This document shows positions 289 to 56,053 of a stretch of DNA of 64,000 bases, in pieces. Position numbers and translations under genes: made by a program. The DNA comes from Limisphaerales bacterium. GTDB taxonomy: Bacteria; Verrucomicrobiota; Verrucomicrobiia; Limisphaerales; SXTU01. Where the stretch lies: NCBI GenBank assembly GCA_009773355.1, contig WRPG01000030.1:1-64000 (forward strand), in the 5' to 3' direction. A model generated the notes under the pieces. That model searched no databases, was not told the DNA's origin, and saw only the letters and a program-made list of their open reading frames with translations. Position 1 is the stretch's first letter. Every line of letters begins with the position of its first letter.

Positions 289-3200
289 CTAGCGGACGGC
301 GACGTGGGCCACGTCATAGACGCGCGTGGTGCGTTCCTGGCCGTCCACCATGAGCAACCGGCCGTTCGGGCTGAAGGAGAGCGTGACCGGGTTGCCGGCC
401 AGGCCGAGGAAGTAGTCGAGGAGCTTGCCGGTGCGGTGGTCCCAGACTTTCACCGAGCCGTCGGCGGAGGCGGTGGCGAGGATGGGCTGCTTCGGATGGA
501 AGGTCAGCGCGCCCACGTCGCCGTCGTGCGCGCGGAAGCCGGGCTGCTCGCGCAACGTGTCCGCGTCGAAGAGATGCACCGCGTGGTCGCTGCCGCCGAG
601 GGCGACGAGCCGGCGGTCGGACGATACCGCGAGGGCCTGGACGTGGAAGCGGTTCGTGGCGGTGAGGAGGGTTTTCCCGGTCGCGCCGTCAAGCTGGCGC
701 AGGTGGAACTCGACGGCGTCGGCCTTGACGGTGTGCGGGGCGATGGCGACGAGGCGTCCGCCGGTGCCGGCGAACTCCGCGCGCAGGTAGCTGCCCACGG
801 CCGAAAACTGGGTCTGGCCGCTTTTGGCGGAGAGGAGCTCAAGGTTGCCGTTGCGGAGCGTGGCGACGAGGCGGTCGCCCTCGGCGTTGAAAGCCAGATG
901 GATCGTCGGGGGAAATCCTTCGCGGTTGAGCTGCTCGGTGACCGTGGCGCCCTCGGTGGCGAAGACCCGCAGCCGGGGCGTGACGAATTGCGGCGCCAGC
1001 AGCGGAACCACGGCGAAGCGCCCGGAGGCCGGGTGCACGGCCATGATCCGGTCATGTCCCATGGCGGGGCCGGGTAGTTCCACCGCCTTGCCAGGCGTGC
1101 TGAGGTCGTAGCGGGCCAGTTCATACGCCTTGCGCGCGACGAGCAGGGTGTCGGCGAGGAACGCGCCACCCCAGGCTTGCTCGGAGACGTGGGAGAACTT
1201 CACCAGCTCGCGCCCGGCGGGGATGCGCCAGACGCGGGGCGGATTGTCCTGCGTGATCAGGTGGCCGCTGGCCGGGTTGAGCACCCAGTTCACGGCCGGC
1301 CCGGGGTTCAGTCCCCCGAAGGTCGCGCGCAGCGTGAGGAACTCGGGATGCCAGAGCCGGAACAGCCAGCGGCCGGAGGCGATCTTGCCCTCCTCGCCCA
1401 TCGTGAGCAGGTGGCCATCGGCGGTCCACGCCATCGCCTCCAGCTTGCCGGCATGCAGCTTGCCCTGCTGGACCACGGCACCAGTGAGGGTGTTGACCAG
1501 CATGACCTCACCCTGCTGCGAGCCGATGGCGACGCGCTGGCCGTCCGGGTGCAGCGCCTGGCACATCGCATAGATGGCGTGCTTGCTGATCTCGCGCCCG
1601 TCGGCGGCGTCGTATATCCAGCAGAAGCGCGAGCCGCCCCCGCTGGAGGCGATGACGCGTCTGCCCTCCGGGTGGATGAGGACGCTGGTGAAGTTCTGGG
1701 CGCGCCTCTGCCAGCGCACGGTGCCGGTGCTGGTCTCGAGCATGGAGAGCTGGAGGCCGCCTTGCACGGGACCGCGCGCGCCGGCGATGACCGCCAACAA
1801 GCCGGCGTCCTGCCCGAGGGCAATTTTCTGGATGCGCTCCCCCGGCAGCGTGAGCGACTTGCGGCGGGTGCCCGTGGCGGTGTCGTGCAGGTCCACTGCC
1901 ACGCCGGTGCCGCGGACGGCGAAGGTCTGCCCATCGCCGGAGAAGACCAGTTCCTGCGGCCGCTGCTGGCCGGTTTTCACGGTGCGCAACAGCCGGCCGT
2001 TGGCGGCGTCCACGAACCCGACATCGCCGCTGGCCACCGCGAACGCGAACTGCCCCGGCTGGCCGGGCACGGCGGCGAAGGGGCCGAACCGCTCGAAGCC
2101 CGGCACGCGCAAAGGGCCGAGCGCACCGTCGCGCTTGGCCGAGAGGTAGGCCCATGTGGAGTCGCGCTCATTGGCCGGGCAGGCGTCCAGCGCCTGCACC
2201 ATGGCGGGAAAATCACCGCTGCGGAACGCCGCCTCGGCGAGGGCGATTTGAGCCTGCGCGGAGGCGGCCCGCGCCTCCTTCTCCGCCTTGAGCGCCTTTT
2301 CCTTCTCGCTGATGGCCAGGTCCGCCGCGCGCGTGGCCTCGCGTTCCTTGGCCCGCAGGCCGCCGACGAACACGACCGTCAGCACCGCGATGACCGCCAG
2401 CGCCGCCGCCGCCGCGATGGTGACGCCCCGGTGGCGTTTCATCAGCAGGACGAGCTGGCCCAGCGCGCCGACCTGCTCCGCGCTGGTGGCGAAGCCGCCC
2501 TGATACGCCTCAATGTCGGCGACGAGCGCGGCGACGTTCGCGTAGCGGTCGGCGGGCTGGAGCGCCATCGCGCGCATGGTCACGGCGGAGAGCGAGGCGG
2601 GCACCTTGCCATCGGGACAATGCGGCAGGCCGGTGACTTTCCGCGCGTCGGGGACTTCCCCGTCCGGCTTTGGCGTCGGTGCCGCCATCGTGTTGTAGGT
2701 CGTGGGCGGCGTGATGATGCCGCTGATGACCTTGGCCAGCACTTCCTCGACCTTCTTGCCCTCGACCGGGTGCCGCAGCGTGAGGATCGCGTAGAGGATG
2801 CCGCCGAGCGAATAGATGTCCGAGTGCGTGCCGATGTCCGCCAGCCGGCCCTCCGCCTGTTCCGGCGGCATGTATTGCGGAGAGCCCATGACCGCGCCCT
2901 CGAGCGTGAGGTTGCCCGCGCCGGCGGCGAGTTCCGCGTCGCTCAACTCGTTGAACCCCTCGATGGCCTGCGCGCGCTCGGCCTCGGACTTCGCGTGCTG
3001 CTCGTCGTCGAGGTGCTTGGCCAGGCCCCAGTCCATCACGAGCACCTCGCCGAACTCGCCCACCATCACGTTCTCCGGCTTGAGGTCGCGGTGGATGATG
3101 CGCTGATGGTGCGCGAAGGCGACGGCGTCGCAGACCTTCCGGTAAATCGTCAGCAGCCGGTCCAGCGTGTAGTGCTGTGTGGTGAACTCGTCGCCCTTCT

Positions 3201-3546
3201 TGATAGCGGTGAGGATGGCCTGGAGCGTGCGGCCCTTCACCAGCTTCATCGTGTAGAAGCGCCGGCCCTGCTCATCGCGGCCCAGCTCGTGGATGGGCAC
3301 GATGTTCGGGTGCGACAGCCGCGCGAGCACGAGCGCCTCGCGCAGGAAGCGCTGCCGGGCGACCTGATCGCTCTCTCCCGAATCCAGCATGACCTTCATC
3401 GCCACCTCGCGGTCGAGCGACTGGTCCGTCGCCTCCAGGATGGCGCCCATGCCGCCGCGCGCGATCTCGCGGCCCACGGCGTAACGGCCCGCGACGGGCG
3501 GCGGCGCGTCCCCGGATGCGTCAAGTGAGGCCATGCTGTCAGGCAC
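289..3546 (-). CDS. Membrane Ser/Thr protein kinase with C-terminal WD40-type propeller
   Basis: This 1085-residue protein is a eukaryotic-type kinase fused to a beta-propeller sensor. Residues about 20-350 form the kinase domain: a Gly-rich loop at GRE.ARGGMG, the ATP-binding Lys51 in VAMKV, the catalytic HRD at 152-154 within HRDLKPENV, and DWG at 172-174 in place of the usual DFG. The activation segment ends in GSPQYMPPEQ. One membrane helix lies at about 375-398, so the kinase should be cytoplasmic and the rest outside. Residues about 470-1085 carry WD40-like repeats, clearest near the end (SADGSVKVWD). From family knowledge, such kinase-WD40 fusions are common in Planctomycetes and Verrucomicrobia. 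The signal sensed and the targets cannot be read from the sequence. Confidence 0.95.
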   Translation of the reverse strand: MPDSMASLDASGDAPPPVAGRYAVGREIARGGMGAILEATDQSLDREVAMKVMLDSGESDQVARQRFLREALVLARLSHPNIVPIHELGRDEQGRRFYTMKLVKGRTLQAILTAIKKGDEFTTQHYTLDRLLTIYRKVCDAVAFAHHQRIIHRDLKPENVMVGEFGEVLVMDWGLAKHLDDEQHAKSEAERAQAIEGFNELSDAELAAGAGNLTLEGAVMGSPQYMPPEQAEGRLADIGTHSDIYSLGGILYAILTLRHPVEGKKVEEVLAKVISGIITPPTTYNTMAAPTPKPDGEVPDARKVTGLPHCPDGKVPASLSAVTMRAMALQPADRYANVAALVADIEAYQGGFATSAEQVGALGQLVLLMKRHRGVTIAAAAALAVIAVLTVVFVGGLRAKEREATRAADLAISEKEKALKAEKEARAASAQAQIALAEAAFRSGDFPAMVQALDACPANERDSTWAYLSAKRDGALGPLRVPGFERFGPFAAVPGQPGQFAFAVASGDVGFVDAANGRLLRTVKTGQQRPQELVFSGDGQTFAVRGTGVAVDLHDTATGTRRKSLTLPGERIQKIALGQDAGLLAVIAGARGPVQGGLQLSMLETSTGTVRWQRRAQNFTSVLIHPEGRRVIASSGGGSRFCWIYDAADGREISKHAIYAMCQALHPDGQRVAIGSQQGEVMLVNTLTGAVVQQGKLHAGKLEAMAWTADGHLLTMGEEGKIASGRWLFRLWHPEFLTLRATFGGLNPGPAVNWVLNPASGHLITQDNPPRVWRIPAGRELVKFSHVSEQAWGGAFLADTLLVARKAYELARYDLSTPGKAVELPGPAMGHDRIMAVHPASGRFAVVPLLAPQFVTPRLRVFATEGATVTEQLNREGFPPTIHLAFNAEGDRLVATLRNGNLELLSAKSGQTQFSAVGSYLRAEFAGTGGRLVAIAPHTVKADAVEFHLRQLDGATGKTLLTATNRFHVQALAVSSDRRLVALGGSDHAVHLFDADTLREQPGFRAHDGDVGALTFHPKQPILATASADGSVKVWDHRTGKLLDYFLGLAGNPVTLSFSPNGRLLMVDGQERTTRVYDVAHVAVR

Positions 3547-3636
3547 TCTTTAGCAAACGAGGCCCGCCGCCCGCGAATCAAAAAGCGCGGCTGAATTTGC
3601 GCTTCCCGCCTCGTCGCTCGCTGCTACTTTGGGGGC

Positions 3637-52579: not shown

Positions 52580-54235
52580 TCACACCCGGTTCAGGGCACT
52601 GAGGACGGCCTTGATGGACGCCAGCTCGATGTTCGTGTCCACGGCGGCGCCCCAGCGGACCTTGCCGTCGGCGAGCTTGATCTGGATGTAGCTGATGGCG
52701 CTCGCGCCCTCGCCGGCGCTCAAGGCGTGCTCGCGGTAGTTGGTCACCTCGAACTTCGACGCGCCGCCGTCGGCGAGCGCGCTCACGAACGCGGCGATGG
52801 GGCCATTGCCTTCGCCGGTGAGCTTCAACTCCGCGCCGTCCTTCCGCACGCTGGCGCGGCAGCGGAACACGCCGTCCACGCCGTCCGCGTGGAAGTGGAT
52901 CAGCGACCACGGTGTCGTGCGCTCGACGTATTCGCGCCAGAACATCGCCTTGAGTTCCTCGCCCTTCACCTCGCGGCCCAGCGCGTCCACAAGGTCGTTC
53001 GCAATCGGGCCGAACTCGCGCTGCATGTCCTTGGGCAGCTCAATGCCAAATTCGCTCTCGAGCAGGTAGGCCACGCCGCCCTTGCCGGACTGGCTGTTCA
53101 CGCGGATGACCTCGCGGTATTCGCGGCCCAAGTCGCGCGGGTCAATGGTCAGATACGGCACGTCCCAGTGGGTGCGCCCGCCTTTTTCCCATTCGGCGAT
53201 GCCCTTCTTGATGGCGTCCTGATGCGAGCCGCTGAACGCGGTGAAGACCAGCTCGCCCGCGTAAGGCTGGCGCGGCGGCACGGTCATGCCGGTGCAACGC
53301 TCATAGACCTCGCGCAGCGCGTTCAAGTCGGAAAAGTCGAGGCGCGGGTCAATGCCGTGCATGTAGAGGTTCAGCGCCACGGTGATGATGTCGAGGTTGC
53401 CCGTGCGTTCGCCGTTGCCGAAGAGCGTGCCCTCGACGCGGTCCGCGCCGGCGAGCAGGCCCAGCTCCGTGGCGGCCGTGCCGGTGTTCCGATCGTTGTG
53501 CGTGTGCAGGCTGACGATGAGCGAGTCGCGGTTGCGGATGTTGGTGCAAAGCCACTCGATTTGGTCGGCATAGACATTCGGCATCGCGACCTCGACCGTA
53601 TCGGGCAGGTTCAGAATCATCTTACGCTGCGGCGTGGGCTGCCACACGTCCATCACGGCCTCGGAGACTTCCTTGGCATACTCGACTTCCGTCGCGGAGA
53701 AGCTCTCCGGCGAATACTGGAGCGTCACGTCCGTGCCCTTGAGCCGGTGCAATCGCTCCTGAATCAGCTTCGCGCCTTGGACGGCGATGGCCTTGATTTC
53801 GTCCTTCGACTTGCCGAACACCACGCGGCGCTGCGCCGGCGAGGTCGAGTTATACATGTGGATGACGACCCGCTTCGCGCCAACGAGCGACTGGAAGGTT
53901 TTCTCGATGAGGTCCTCGCGCGCCTGCACGAGCACCTGGATGGTCACGTCGTCGGGAATGCGGTTCTCCTCGATGAGCCGGCGGTTGAAGGCGAACTCGG
54001 TGTTCGACGCGGACGGGAAGCCGACCTCGATCTCCTTGAAGCCGCACTTCACGAGCGCCTGAAAGAGCTCGAGCTTCTGCGCCACGTTCATGGGCACGGC
54101 GAGCGCCTGGTTGCCATCGCGCAGGTCCACGCTGCACCAGAGCGGCGCGTGGGTGAGCGTGCGATTGGGCCACTGGCGGTTCGGGAGGTGGACGCCGGGG
54201 AACGGGCGGTATTTGGCGACGGTGTCTTTCAGCAT
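52580..54235 (-). CDS. leuA: 2-isopropylmalate synthase (long form)
   Basis: This 551-residue enzyme condenses acetyl-CoA and 2-oxoisovalerate, the committed step of leucine synthesis. The start MLKDTVAKYRPFPGVHLPNR and length match the second class of LeuA (about 550-600 residues). APLWCSVDLRDGNQAL holds the first active-site residues, SLHTHNDRNTGTAATELGL the metal-binding HxH-type region, and ADRVEGTLFGNGERTGN the glycine loop. The C-terminal part from about 440 on is the regulatory domain that binds leucine. A leader peptide and terminator lie upstream (54357-54486), suggesting control by attenuation. Confidence 0.96.
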   Translation of the reverse strand: MLKDTVAKYRPFPGVHLPNRQWPNRTLTHAPLWCSVDLRDGNQALAVPMNVAQKLELFQALVKCGFKEIEVGFPSASNTEFAFNRRLIEENRIPDDVTIQVLVQAREDLIEKTFQSLVGAKRVVIHMYNSTSPAQRRVVFGKSKDEIKAIAVQGAKLIQERLHRLKGTDVTLQYSPESFSATEVEYAKEVSEAVMDVWQPTPQRKMILNLPDTVEVAMPNVYADQIEWLCTNIRNRDSLIVSLHTHNDRNTGTAATELGLLAGADRVEGTLFGNGERTGNLDIITVALNLYMHGIDPRLDFSDLNALREVYERCTGMTVPPRQPYAGELVFTAFSGSHQDAIKKGIAEWEKGGRTHWDVPYLTIDPRDLGREYREVIRVNSQSGKGGVAYLLESEFGIELPKDMQREFGPIANDLVDALGREVKGEELKAMFWREYVERTTPWSLIHFHADGVDGVFRCRASVRKDGAELKLTGEGNGPIAAFVSALADGGASKFEVTNYREHALSAGEGASAISYIQIKLADGKVRWGAAVDTNIELASIKAVLSALNRV

Positions 54236-54256
54236 GGCTCGTGTGAGTTCAGGATA

Positions 54257-54359
54257 TTAACCACGGATGGACACAGATGGACACGGATAAAACCCGACCG
54301 CCGCGAACTCGTTTCGCGTTCCAGCCCATCCGTGTTCATCTGTGTGCATCCGTGGTTAA
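54257..54359. repeat. GGATGGACACAGATGG-type element with 32-bp inverted arms
   Basis: The arms 54257-54288 and 54328-54359 are inverted with two mismatches. Each is built of ACGGATGGACACAGATGGAC-like units and begins TTAACCACGG at the outer end. A small hairpin (CGCGAA-CTCG-TTTCGCG) lies in the 39-nt centre. The element separates the leader terminator from the leuA start. Confidence 0.9.
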
Positions 54360-54396
54360 GAAACAAAAACCCCACCGCCTTCGTGGCAGTGGGGTT
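54357..54396 (-). terminator. Rho-independent terminator upstream of leuA (attenuator)
   Basis: Read on the minus strand, AACCCCAC pairs with GTGGGGTT around an inner GCC/GGC pair and a 5-nt loop, with one mismatch. The run TTTTTGTTTCTT follows directly. It stands after the leader peptide stop and about 120 nt before the leuA ATG. The 5' arm (AGAACCC) is perfectly complementary to GGGTTCT at the end of the leader peptide frame, which gives an alternative, antiterminating pairing. Confidence 0.8.
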
Positions 54397-54417
54397 CTCG
54401 AAATCGTGGTGATGAGT

Positions 54418-54486
54418 TCAGAACCCGACCGCCGCGCCGGCCAGCAGCGCGCGAAGCGAAAGTCGAAGGTTTAGAATGTCAGTCAC
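54418..54486 (-). CDS. leuL: Leucine-rich leader peptide of leuA
   Basis: A 22-codon frame starts at GTG 54486 and stops at TGA 54418-54420. It starts MTDILNLRLSLRALL and has six leucines (codons CTA, CTT, CTT, CTT, CTG, CTG) in the first 15 residues. The end of the frame contains GGGTTCT, complementary to the terminator 5' arm, and the Leu codons overlap a CGCGC...GCGCG stem. This is the layout of a classical attenuator: scarcity of charged Leu-tRNA would stall the ribosome and prevent terminator formation. No strong Shine-Dalgarno is visible ahead of the GTG. Confidence 0.65.
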   Translation of the reverse strand: MTDILNLRLSLRALLAGAAVGF

Positions 54487-54594
54487 GCTGCGAGTTGTAG
54501 GCTGGTGAATGCGCCGGGTCAATTCGTTTGTCGGGGCGGCAAAGCATCAGGTGCCATTGAACATTCGCACCCTTTCGGTGGCAGCACGCGCAAA

Positions 54595-54970: not shown

Positions 54971-56053
54971 TCAACCCGCCACGCACGCCGCGAAGCCCGC
55001 ACGGATGCCCGCCTCGTCCAGTTCCTTGCCGATGAAGACAAGCTGGTTGCCGCGCTTCTCGTCGGGGCTCCAGAAGCGCTCCGGCTCCACGTCGAACATC
55101 ATCTGGACGCTTTGGAAGATCACGCGCTTGGGCACGCCCTGGATGTGCAGGATTCCCTTGGCGCGGTAGATGTTTTCGCCGCCCTTGGCCAGCAGCTCGT
55201 TCAGCCACGCCTCGGTCTTCTTCAAGTCCAGCGGGCGTTCGTCGAGGATGTGGAAAGAACGCACCGCGTCATCGTGGCGGCCTGCGTGGTCGTGATCGTG
55301 GCCTTCGTGATCGCACTGCTCGCCGTGCTCGTGGCCGCAGTCGTGATCGTGGCTGTGGGCATGGGCGTGCTCGTGTTCGCAATGGTCGTCGCACTCGTGC
55401 GCGGGCTTCTCGGCGGGGATTTCCAACGGCGCGCTCAAGTCACGCGCGTGGGTGTTGAAGATCTTGCCCATGTCCACCTGCGAGCGCTGGGTGCGGTGGA
55501 TCTTCGCCAACGGGTTGATGTGGCGGATGCGGTGCTCGACGCGGTCCAAGTCGGCCGGCGTAGCGAGGTCAGTTTTGTTGAGGAGAATCACGTCAGCGAA
55601 GGCGATCTGCGGCAGCGCCTCCGGGGCCTTGTCCAGCACACCCTCCAAGTGCCGCGCGTCGGCGACGGTCACGATGGCGTCGAGCCGGAGCTTCTCCTGA
55701 AGCTGCGGCAGGTAAAATGTGTGCGCGATGGGGCTGGGATCGGCCAGGCCCGTCGTCTCGACTAGCACGTAGTCGAAGCGCTTCTGGCGCTTGAGCAGAT
55801 CGGCGAGCGTCTTGACGAGGTCGCCGCGCACGCGGCAGCAAAGGCAGCCGTTGTTCAACTCCACGACTTCCTCGTCCGCGCCCACGACGAGCTGGCCGTC
55901 AATGCCCACCTCACCGAACTCGTTGATGATGATGGCGCACTTGTAGCCGTGCGGCTGCGTGAGCAGGTGCTGGAGCAGCGTGGTCTTGCCCGCGCCCAGG
56001 AAGCCCGTGAGCACCGTGACGGGGATGGAGGTGTCTTTCTTCGTGTCAGCCAT
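54971..56053 (-). CDS. CobW/COG0523 GTPase metallochaperone with His-rich loop
   Basis: This 360-residue G3E GTPase has Walker A GFLGAGKTT (17-25), the family's CxCC metal motif in NNGCLCC (70-73), ETTGLADPSP as switch region and NKTDL for guanine recognition. Between the GTPase and CobW C-terminal domains is a stretch of about 45 residues dominated by His, Asp and Glu (HCEHEHAHAHSHDHDCGHEH), able to bind zinc, cobalt or nickel. The C-terminal domain (VRSFHILDERPLDL onward) is complete. It probably delivers metal to an enzyme. I see no Zur-type box upstream. Confidence 0.93.
   Translation of the reverse strand: MADTKKDTSIPVTVLTGFLGAGKTTLLQHLLTQPHGYKCAIIINEFGEVGIDGQLVVGADEEVVELNNGCLCCRVRGDLVKTLADLLKRQKRFDYVLVETTGLADPSPIAHTFYLPQLQEKLRLDAIVTVADARHLEGVLDKAPEALPQIAFADVILLNKTDLATPADLDRVEHRIRHINPLAKIHRTQRSQVDMGKIFNTHARDLSAPLEIPAEKPAHECDDHCEHEHAHAHSHDHDCGHEHGEQCDHEGHDHDHAGRHDDAVRSFHILDERPLDLKKTEAWLNELLAKGGENIYRAKGILHIQGVPKRVIFQSVQMMFDVEPERFWSPDEKRGNQLVFIGKELDEAGIRAGFAACVAG

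Follow-up and report, generated by a model that had tools for sequence, protein, structure and literature searches.

The leuA gene of a Limisphaerales bacterium (genome size 6.2 Mb) is preceded by a short frame rich in Leu codons and by a hairpin with a T-tract. Do these parts constitute a transcription attenuator that is governed by translation, or do they serve another function? We analyzed the locus within the window, that is, the whole stretch of 64,000 nucleotides, and compared it with related genomes. The arrangement and conservation of the parts make us highly confident that a ribosome-mediated transcription attenuator of leuA is encoded here. The LeuA product (551 aa) scored 822 bits with NF002991 and 731 bits with TIGR00970, both above the cut-off. 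The features are listed below in the direction of transcription.

54517-54522, minus strand: -35 element TTGACC; its TTGAC is conserved in nearly all aligned leaders
54494-54499, minus strand: -10 element TACAAC, 17-nt spacer, forming a sigma70-like promoter with TTGACC
54418-54486, minus strand: predicted leader peptide frame GTG to TGA, MTDILNLRLSLRALLAGAAVGF, 22 codons with 6 Leu (sequence and conserved Leu content)
54462-54471, minus strand: region 1a, AACCTTCGAC; by pairing with GTCGGGTT (54429-54422) it can sequester the 5′ arm of the antiterminator
54433-54451, minus strand: P1 hairpin over the control codons GCG CTG CTG (CGCGC : GCGCG in the window)
54420-54433, minus strand: region 2, 5′ arm of the antiterminator, GGCGGTCGGGTTCT, a near-copy of the 3′ arm of the terminator
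54385-54398, minus strand: region 3, AGAACCCCACTGCC, shared as 3′ arm of the antiterminator and 5′ arm of the terminator
54379-54370, minus strand: region 4, 3′ arm of the terminator, GGCGGTGGGG, separated from region 3 by a 5-nt loop
54369-54361, minus strand: T-tract, directly after region 4
52580-54235, minus strand: leuA, 2-isopropylmalate synthase of the TIGR00970/PRK03739 class (NCBIfam match above the cut-off)

The earlier note had described a 22-codon frame with six Leu codons upstream of leuA, an antiterminator pairing and a strong terminator, and all three are found at the locus. The frame runs from 54486 to 54418. The noted pairing of GGGTTCT (54426-54420) with AGAACCC (54398-54392) is present, and the antiterminator is longer than these seven pairs: beyond one C-C mismatch, GGCGGT (54433-54428) faces ACTGCC (54390-54385), giving 13 pairs and one mismatch in total. 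The terminator with its T-tract is G+C-rich, is the only strong one in that region and ends 125 nt from leuA. The stop codon TGA occupies 54420-54418, its first base being the last T of region 2, and a 19-nt spacer separates it from region 3. A frame rich in codons for the end product of the pathway is followed by an intrinsic terminator between frame and gene, and the antiterminator, whose 5′ arm overlaps the end of the frame, excludes the terminator. The interval proposed before (54236-54486) contains the frame, the antiterminator and the terminator; its part from 54360 to 54236 lies outside the element, which on the upstream side extends beyond the interval to the promoter at 54522.

In the mechanism that we propose, RNA polymerase would start at or beside the leader GTG (a predicted position), and a ribosome would initiate on the leaderless 5′ end. 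When charged tRNA-Leu is low, the ribosome would stall on the Leu codons, chiefly at the CTG CTG placed 11-14 nt before region 2. The stall is expected to break P1 and the pairing between regions 1 and 2 (1:2 pairing), leaving region 2 free for region 3; this pairing would block the terminator, and leuA would be transcribed. With ample leucine, the ribosome would reach the stop codon and cover region 2, region 3 would pair with region 4, and transcription would end at the T-tract. The leader is accordingly predicted to respond to leucine, and the enzyme is probably made only on leucine shortage. What can be read directly from the sequences is the set of parts, their order, their conservation, the pair-keeping changes, the fixed geometry and the match of codon identity to pathway, with Leu before leuA and Val before ilvB.

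The pairings were tested on an alignment of 51 leaders (A1). As controls, the pairings were slid by 1-3 columns or the sequences were shuffled; shuffled controls overstate significance among relatives, whereas slid controls retain their relatedness. Cells of the antiterminator were paired in 85.5% of cases, compared with 37-59% after sliding, and six of its pairs had changed on both sides. The terminator was paired in 92% of cells. For the P1 hairpin, 83% were paired over the relatives, with pair-keeping changes on both sides in four of eight pairs. The 1:2 pairing (AACC..CGAC : GTCGGGTT) reached 80%, against 21-49% when slid, and seven of its eight pairs had changed on both sides. All four pairings exceeded both the slid and the shuffled controls. 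Furthermore, RNAalifold, unaided, returned the terminator together with a helix in which CTG/CTGC of the Leu codons faces region 2 at its 5′ end. Conservation of the Leu codons and of the alternative pairing in relatives had been named beforehand as a point on which the reading as leu-type attenuation would stand or fall; both are conserved in the 51 aligned leaders, and this supports the reading.

Energy comparisons gave the following results. The terminator was more stable than the antiterminator in 44 of the 51 leaders, the averages being -24.0 and -20.1 kcal/mol. The leader folded far more stably than shuffles, with a z-score of -8.65, a value to which the energy of an unrelated palindromic repeat (54260-54356) contributes. 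Since duplex energies of the leuA antiterminator against mononucleotide shuffles are uninformative in this G+C-rich sequence, the antiterminator rests on the alignment tests. The antiterminator mismatch is kept: at column 72, 50 of the 51 leaders have C, T or A and one has G, and the alternative GTG at this codon would still encode Val. Selection that keeps the antiterminator weaker than the terminator is one reading of the mismatch; it is not the only one, because the same C also serves the 1:2 pairing.

The position of the frame is fixed relative to these hairpins. In 50 of the 51 leaders, region 2 ended on the base that opens the stop codon. The last Leu codon was located 11 nt (34 leaders), 14 nt (12) or 17 nt (4) upstream of region 2, again in 50 of 51. 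From these distances, a ribosome stalled at the last Leu codon would leave region 2 largely free, and one at the stop codon would cover it. This is the layout of the classical attenuator, such as that of E. coli trp. Leu makes up 0.28-0.30 of the leader residues over the 51 leaders, and the codons differ from those of the genes, in comparisons whose Fisher tests ignore phylogeny: in leuA leaders, 30% of the Leu codons are CTT, CTA or TTA, whereas the figure for 24 leuA genes from the same group is 6.5%, and CTC falls from 42% in the genes to 4% in the leaders. Similarly, the share of GTA among Val codons is 33% in the leaders of ilvB and 0.9% in the genes themselves. Rare codons in a leader are expected to raise its sensitivity to tRNA charging; base-pairing constraints may contribute to their enrichment.

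An alternative is that the region upstream of leuA holds a terminator that acts constitutively, or a gene for a small RNA, and that the frame is incidental. With a promoter just ahead of a strong terminator, a short transcript of about 125 nt would be expected, and attenuators are known to give rise to small RNAs, such as rnTrpL of S. meliloti (PMC7298713). We consider this alternative very improbable, since the frame keeps its start, its stop position and its Leu content despite its varying length and 5′ sequence. Moreover, the Leu codons use all six synonyms, the ilvB leaders have the same layout with Val, and the pairing of region 2 with region 3 is conserved, which a plain terminator does not need.

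The start of the transcript was considered next to that of the frame. In nearly all aligned leaders, TTGAC is placed 35-40 nt 5′ of the leader start codon. Over 49 leaders, the -10 box has T at position 1 in 44 and A at position 2 in 48, and the spacer is 17 nt in 38. This promoter stands at a distance that, judged by sequence, fits a start upstream of or at the frame. Since the start codon follows the -10 box by 6-8 nt (41 of 49 leaders) and no Shine-Dalgarno sequence precedes it (a similar motif occurs in 1 of 49), the leader mRNA is probably leaderless; transcription is predicted to start at the leader start codon or within a few nucleotides of it. A start downstream of the terminator, which would speak against attenuation, is unlikely because the conserved promoter is just 5′ of the leader frame and because leuA begins no more than about 20 nt from the T-tract in some relatives (L015 of G052 and L041 of G020), leaving no room for a promoter.

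To place the element among known systems, the window and the leader were compared with Rfam. No Rfam family reached its cut-off on the leader. Leu_leader (RF00512) likewise has a Leu-rich leader peptide and alternative antiterminator and terminator hairpins before leuA. It gave no match in the window itself; the best relative (L044), whose alignment covers the entire model, scored 34.9 bits (E 6e-4), below the gathering cut-off of 50 bits. The leader described here differs from it in its own sequence, its putative leaderless start, a stop codon located where the antiterminator arm ends, and a mismatch that is conserved within the antiterminator. In other phyla, the terminator/antiterminator switches of leucine genes are T-boxes, so that an RNA sensing a metabolite or a protein (riboswitch, T-box or repressor site), and not a translating ribosome, might control leuA. 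This appears close to negligible: at the cut-off, the window contains no match to a T-box, a riboswitch or any further regulatory family of Rfam, the T-box model (RF00230) matched neither the window at its gathering cut-off nor the leader at E up to 10, and the leader at that E value had sub-threshold Rfam matches only. In addition, no conserved structured aptamer exists besides the frame and its hairpins, and codon identity follows the pathway.

The actinobacterial LEU element (PMC1262725) also has a leader peptide with a run of Leu upstream of leuA. In contrast to the present leader, it has no terminator switch; a pseudoknot is predicted between the Leu-codon run and the Shine-Dalgarno box of leuA, and mutations in the Streptomyces leader peptide did not behave as in classical attenuation (PMC1262725). 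Control of the translation or stability of leuA mRNA, as debated for Streptomyces leuA, would be an analogous role for the present leader. However, a strong T-tract terminator and a mutually exclusive antiterminator are conserved here, and the terminator is 125 nt away from leuA in the window, so that we give such control hardly any weight and retain transcription attenuation by the translating ribosome. Two further systems are comparable. The Corynebacterium ilvB-II motif, or ilvBNC attenuator, combines a short frame rich in branched-chain amino acids with attenuation before ilvB (PMC10272879); it is actinobacterial, has another sequence and peptides of 15-17 aa, and leuA is not mentioned in that report, which cites a study on leader peptide formation in the absence of a ribosome binding site. 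In the trpL attenuator of S. meliloti, the transcript opens directly with the leader frame, so that the attenuator peptide is leaderless; this system differs in its Trp codons, its target trpE(G) and its host group, Alphaproteobacteria (PMC7298713).

The distribution of the leader was investigated in 58 genomes. With blastn, the 141-nt leader matched 34 of the 57 other genomes; 33 of the matches were at leuA or at a contig end, and that in G002 was 27 nt long and located elsewhere. When a profile and targeted loci were used, the leader was found in 54 of the 58 genomes, which comprise the 51 rows of A1 together with G023, G040 and G041, the latter two divergent. Records that bear the element are named Limisphaerales, Pedosphaera or Verrucomicrobia. 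Two of the remaining genomes (G001 and G008) are incomplete assemblies with no match to an orthologous leuA. The other two, the congeners G002 and G009, have no promoter, leader or terminator, and their leuA begins 29 nt behind the upstream gene. Since these two have none, the leuA leader is dispensable; their ilvB leaders are still present. At both loci (L009 and L008, each at 3100-3560), leuA directly follows a small Cys-rich gene, a case of attenuator loss in nature.

The relatives have LeuA of the window's class at 73-97% identity and a second class (TIGR00973 type) at about 30%. The leader was found before both classes. G026 has both (L061 on C183 and L025 on C220), each behind a Leu-rich leader, the class-1 leader being weak (30.8 bits); in other genomes the leader stands before one class or the other.

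A covariance model of the leader (R1) was run on 384 genomes of the class and on a sample of 289 genomes of the phylum. In the class, it matched nearly all sampled members of the order, a few of them via the ilvB leader alone, and gave about 30-58 bits in several members of other families (f59, f61, f67 and f69), where the matches are Leu-rich leaders before class-2 leuA, for example MNRNLNLLLALLALLLTRQTAG. In the phylum sample, it matched the genome of the window and gave one weak match only. This match (L138) was considered as a leader and rejected, its locus being neither a leuA nor an ilvB leader, and the weak matches L138-L143, L154-L156 and L159 were dropped for the same reason. The predicted element spans the order Limisphaerales and extends, in more divergent form, to a few further families within the class. 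One leader of verrucomicrobial type is on RFVF01000032.1 (L086), titled 'Proteobacteria bacterium', a record that is probably mislabelled.

The secondary matches of R1 were Val-rich frames before ilvB. Targeted analysis of the ilvB loci of relatives gave 45 Val leaders, that of the own genome (MFGTVGQVLLEVVVVIGDAGGPCRA) included.

G000:C15, 18501-19306 (L196): putative ilvB Val leader of the own genome, with terminator and antiterminator
L145, L147-L153, L157, L158, L160-L162 and L165-L215: further Val-rich ilvB leaders

In the ilvB leaders, the antiterminator was paired in 76% of cells (29-53% when slid) and the terminator in 98% (23-49% when slid). The start codon follows the -10 box by 6-9 nt in 37 of 45, and a Shine-Dalgarno-like motif occurs once; these leaders are probably leaderless as well. 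Residue fractions were Leu 0.30 and Val 0.06 in leuA leaders and Val 0.27 and Leu 0.08 in ilvB leaders. A generic scan, based on frame, codon run, promoter distance and terminator, detected a Leu leader at 28 of 30 leuA loci and a Val leader at 29 of 30 ilvB loci, with no Leu/Val cross-hits between the two sets. Before trpE, hisG, PDT (pheA) and hom, the same scan, which covered operons led by one of these genes, gave three stray hits in 582 tests and nothing consistent. Six ilvB loci had no Rfam match to the ilvB-OMG/ilvB motifs at E up to 1, in Rfam 15, which may not include these motifs. As judged from the conserved parts, a second attenuator with the architecture of that at leuA is located before ilvB throughout the order.

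A wider interpretation is tentative, and we regard it as somewhat doubtful when taken as a whole. Two leaderless attenuators, one with Leu codons at leuA and one with Val codons at ilvB, may be ancestral in Verrucomicrobiia; the ribosome would start on the RNA 5′ end as it emerges, the conserved antiterminator mismatch would set the balance of the hairpins, and the same leader would have persisted when a leuA gene of a distant class replaced the one downstream of it.

Leader-peptide attenuation is textbook knowledge in Proteobacteria and is known in Actinobacteria. In Verrucomicrobiota, which are common in soil and fresh water and mostly known from uncultured genomes, no report of it was found in the open-access literature, subscription papers being mostly outside the search. 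The mechanism is known, and its occurrence in Verrucomicrobiota would be new as far as searched. The element is conserved across an order and supplies a ready covariance model, and the Leu and Val supplies are indicated as being sensed separately, at leuA and at ilvB. The two sister genomes without the leader and the two LeuA classes behind the same leader are natural experiments, and the predicted leaderless start makes transcription-translation coupling testable in a little-studied group.

Two other features of the locus were observed. Between the terminator and leuA lies the palindromic dispersed repeat (54260-54356, arms ACCACGGATGNACACNGATGNACACGGAT), unrelated to the attenuator. The genome contains 47 matches to its core, many as inverted pairs, and none to the reversed control pattern, and similar repeats occur 3′ of the terminator in several relatives (L032, L034-L036 and L046). 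In addition, a CobW-like GTPase with a long His-rich stretch is encoded at 54971-56053 on the minus strand; it is related to the CobW/ZigA models, scoring below their cut-offs, and is likely to bind metal.
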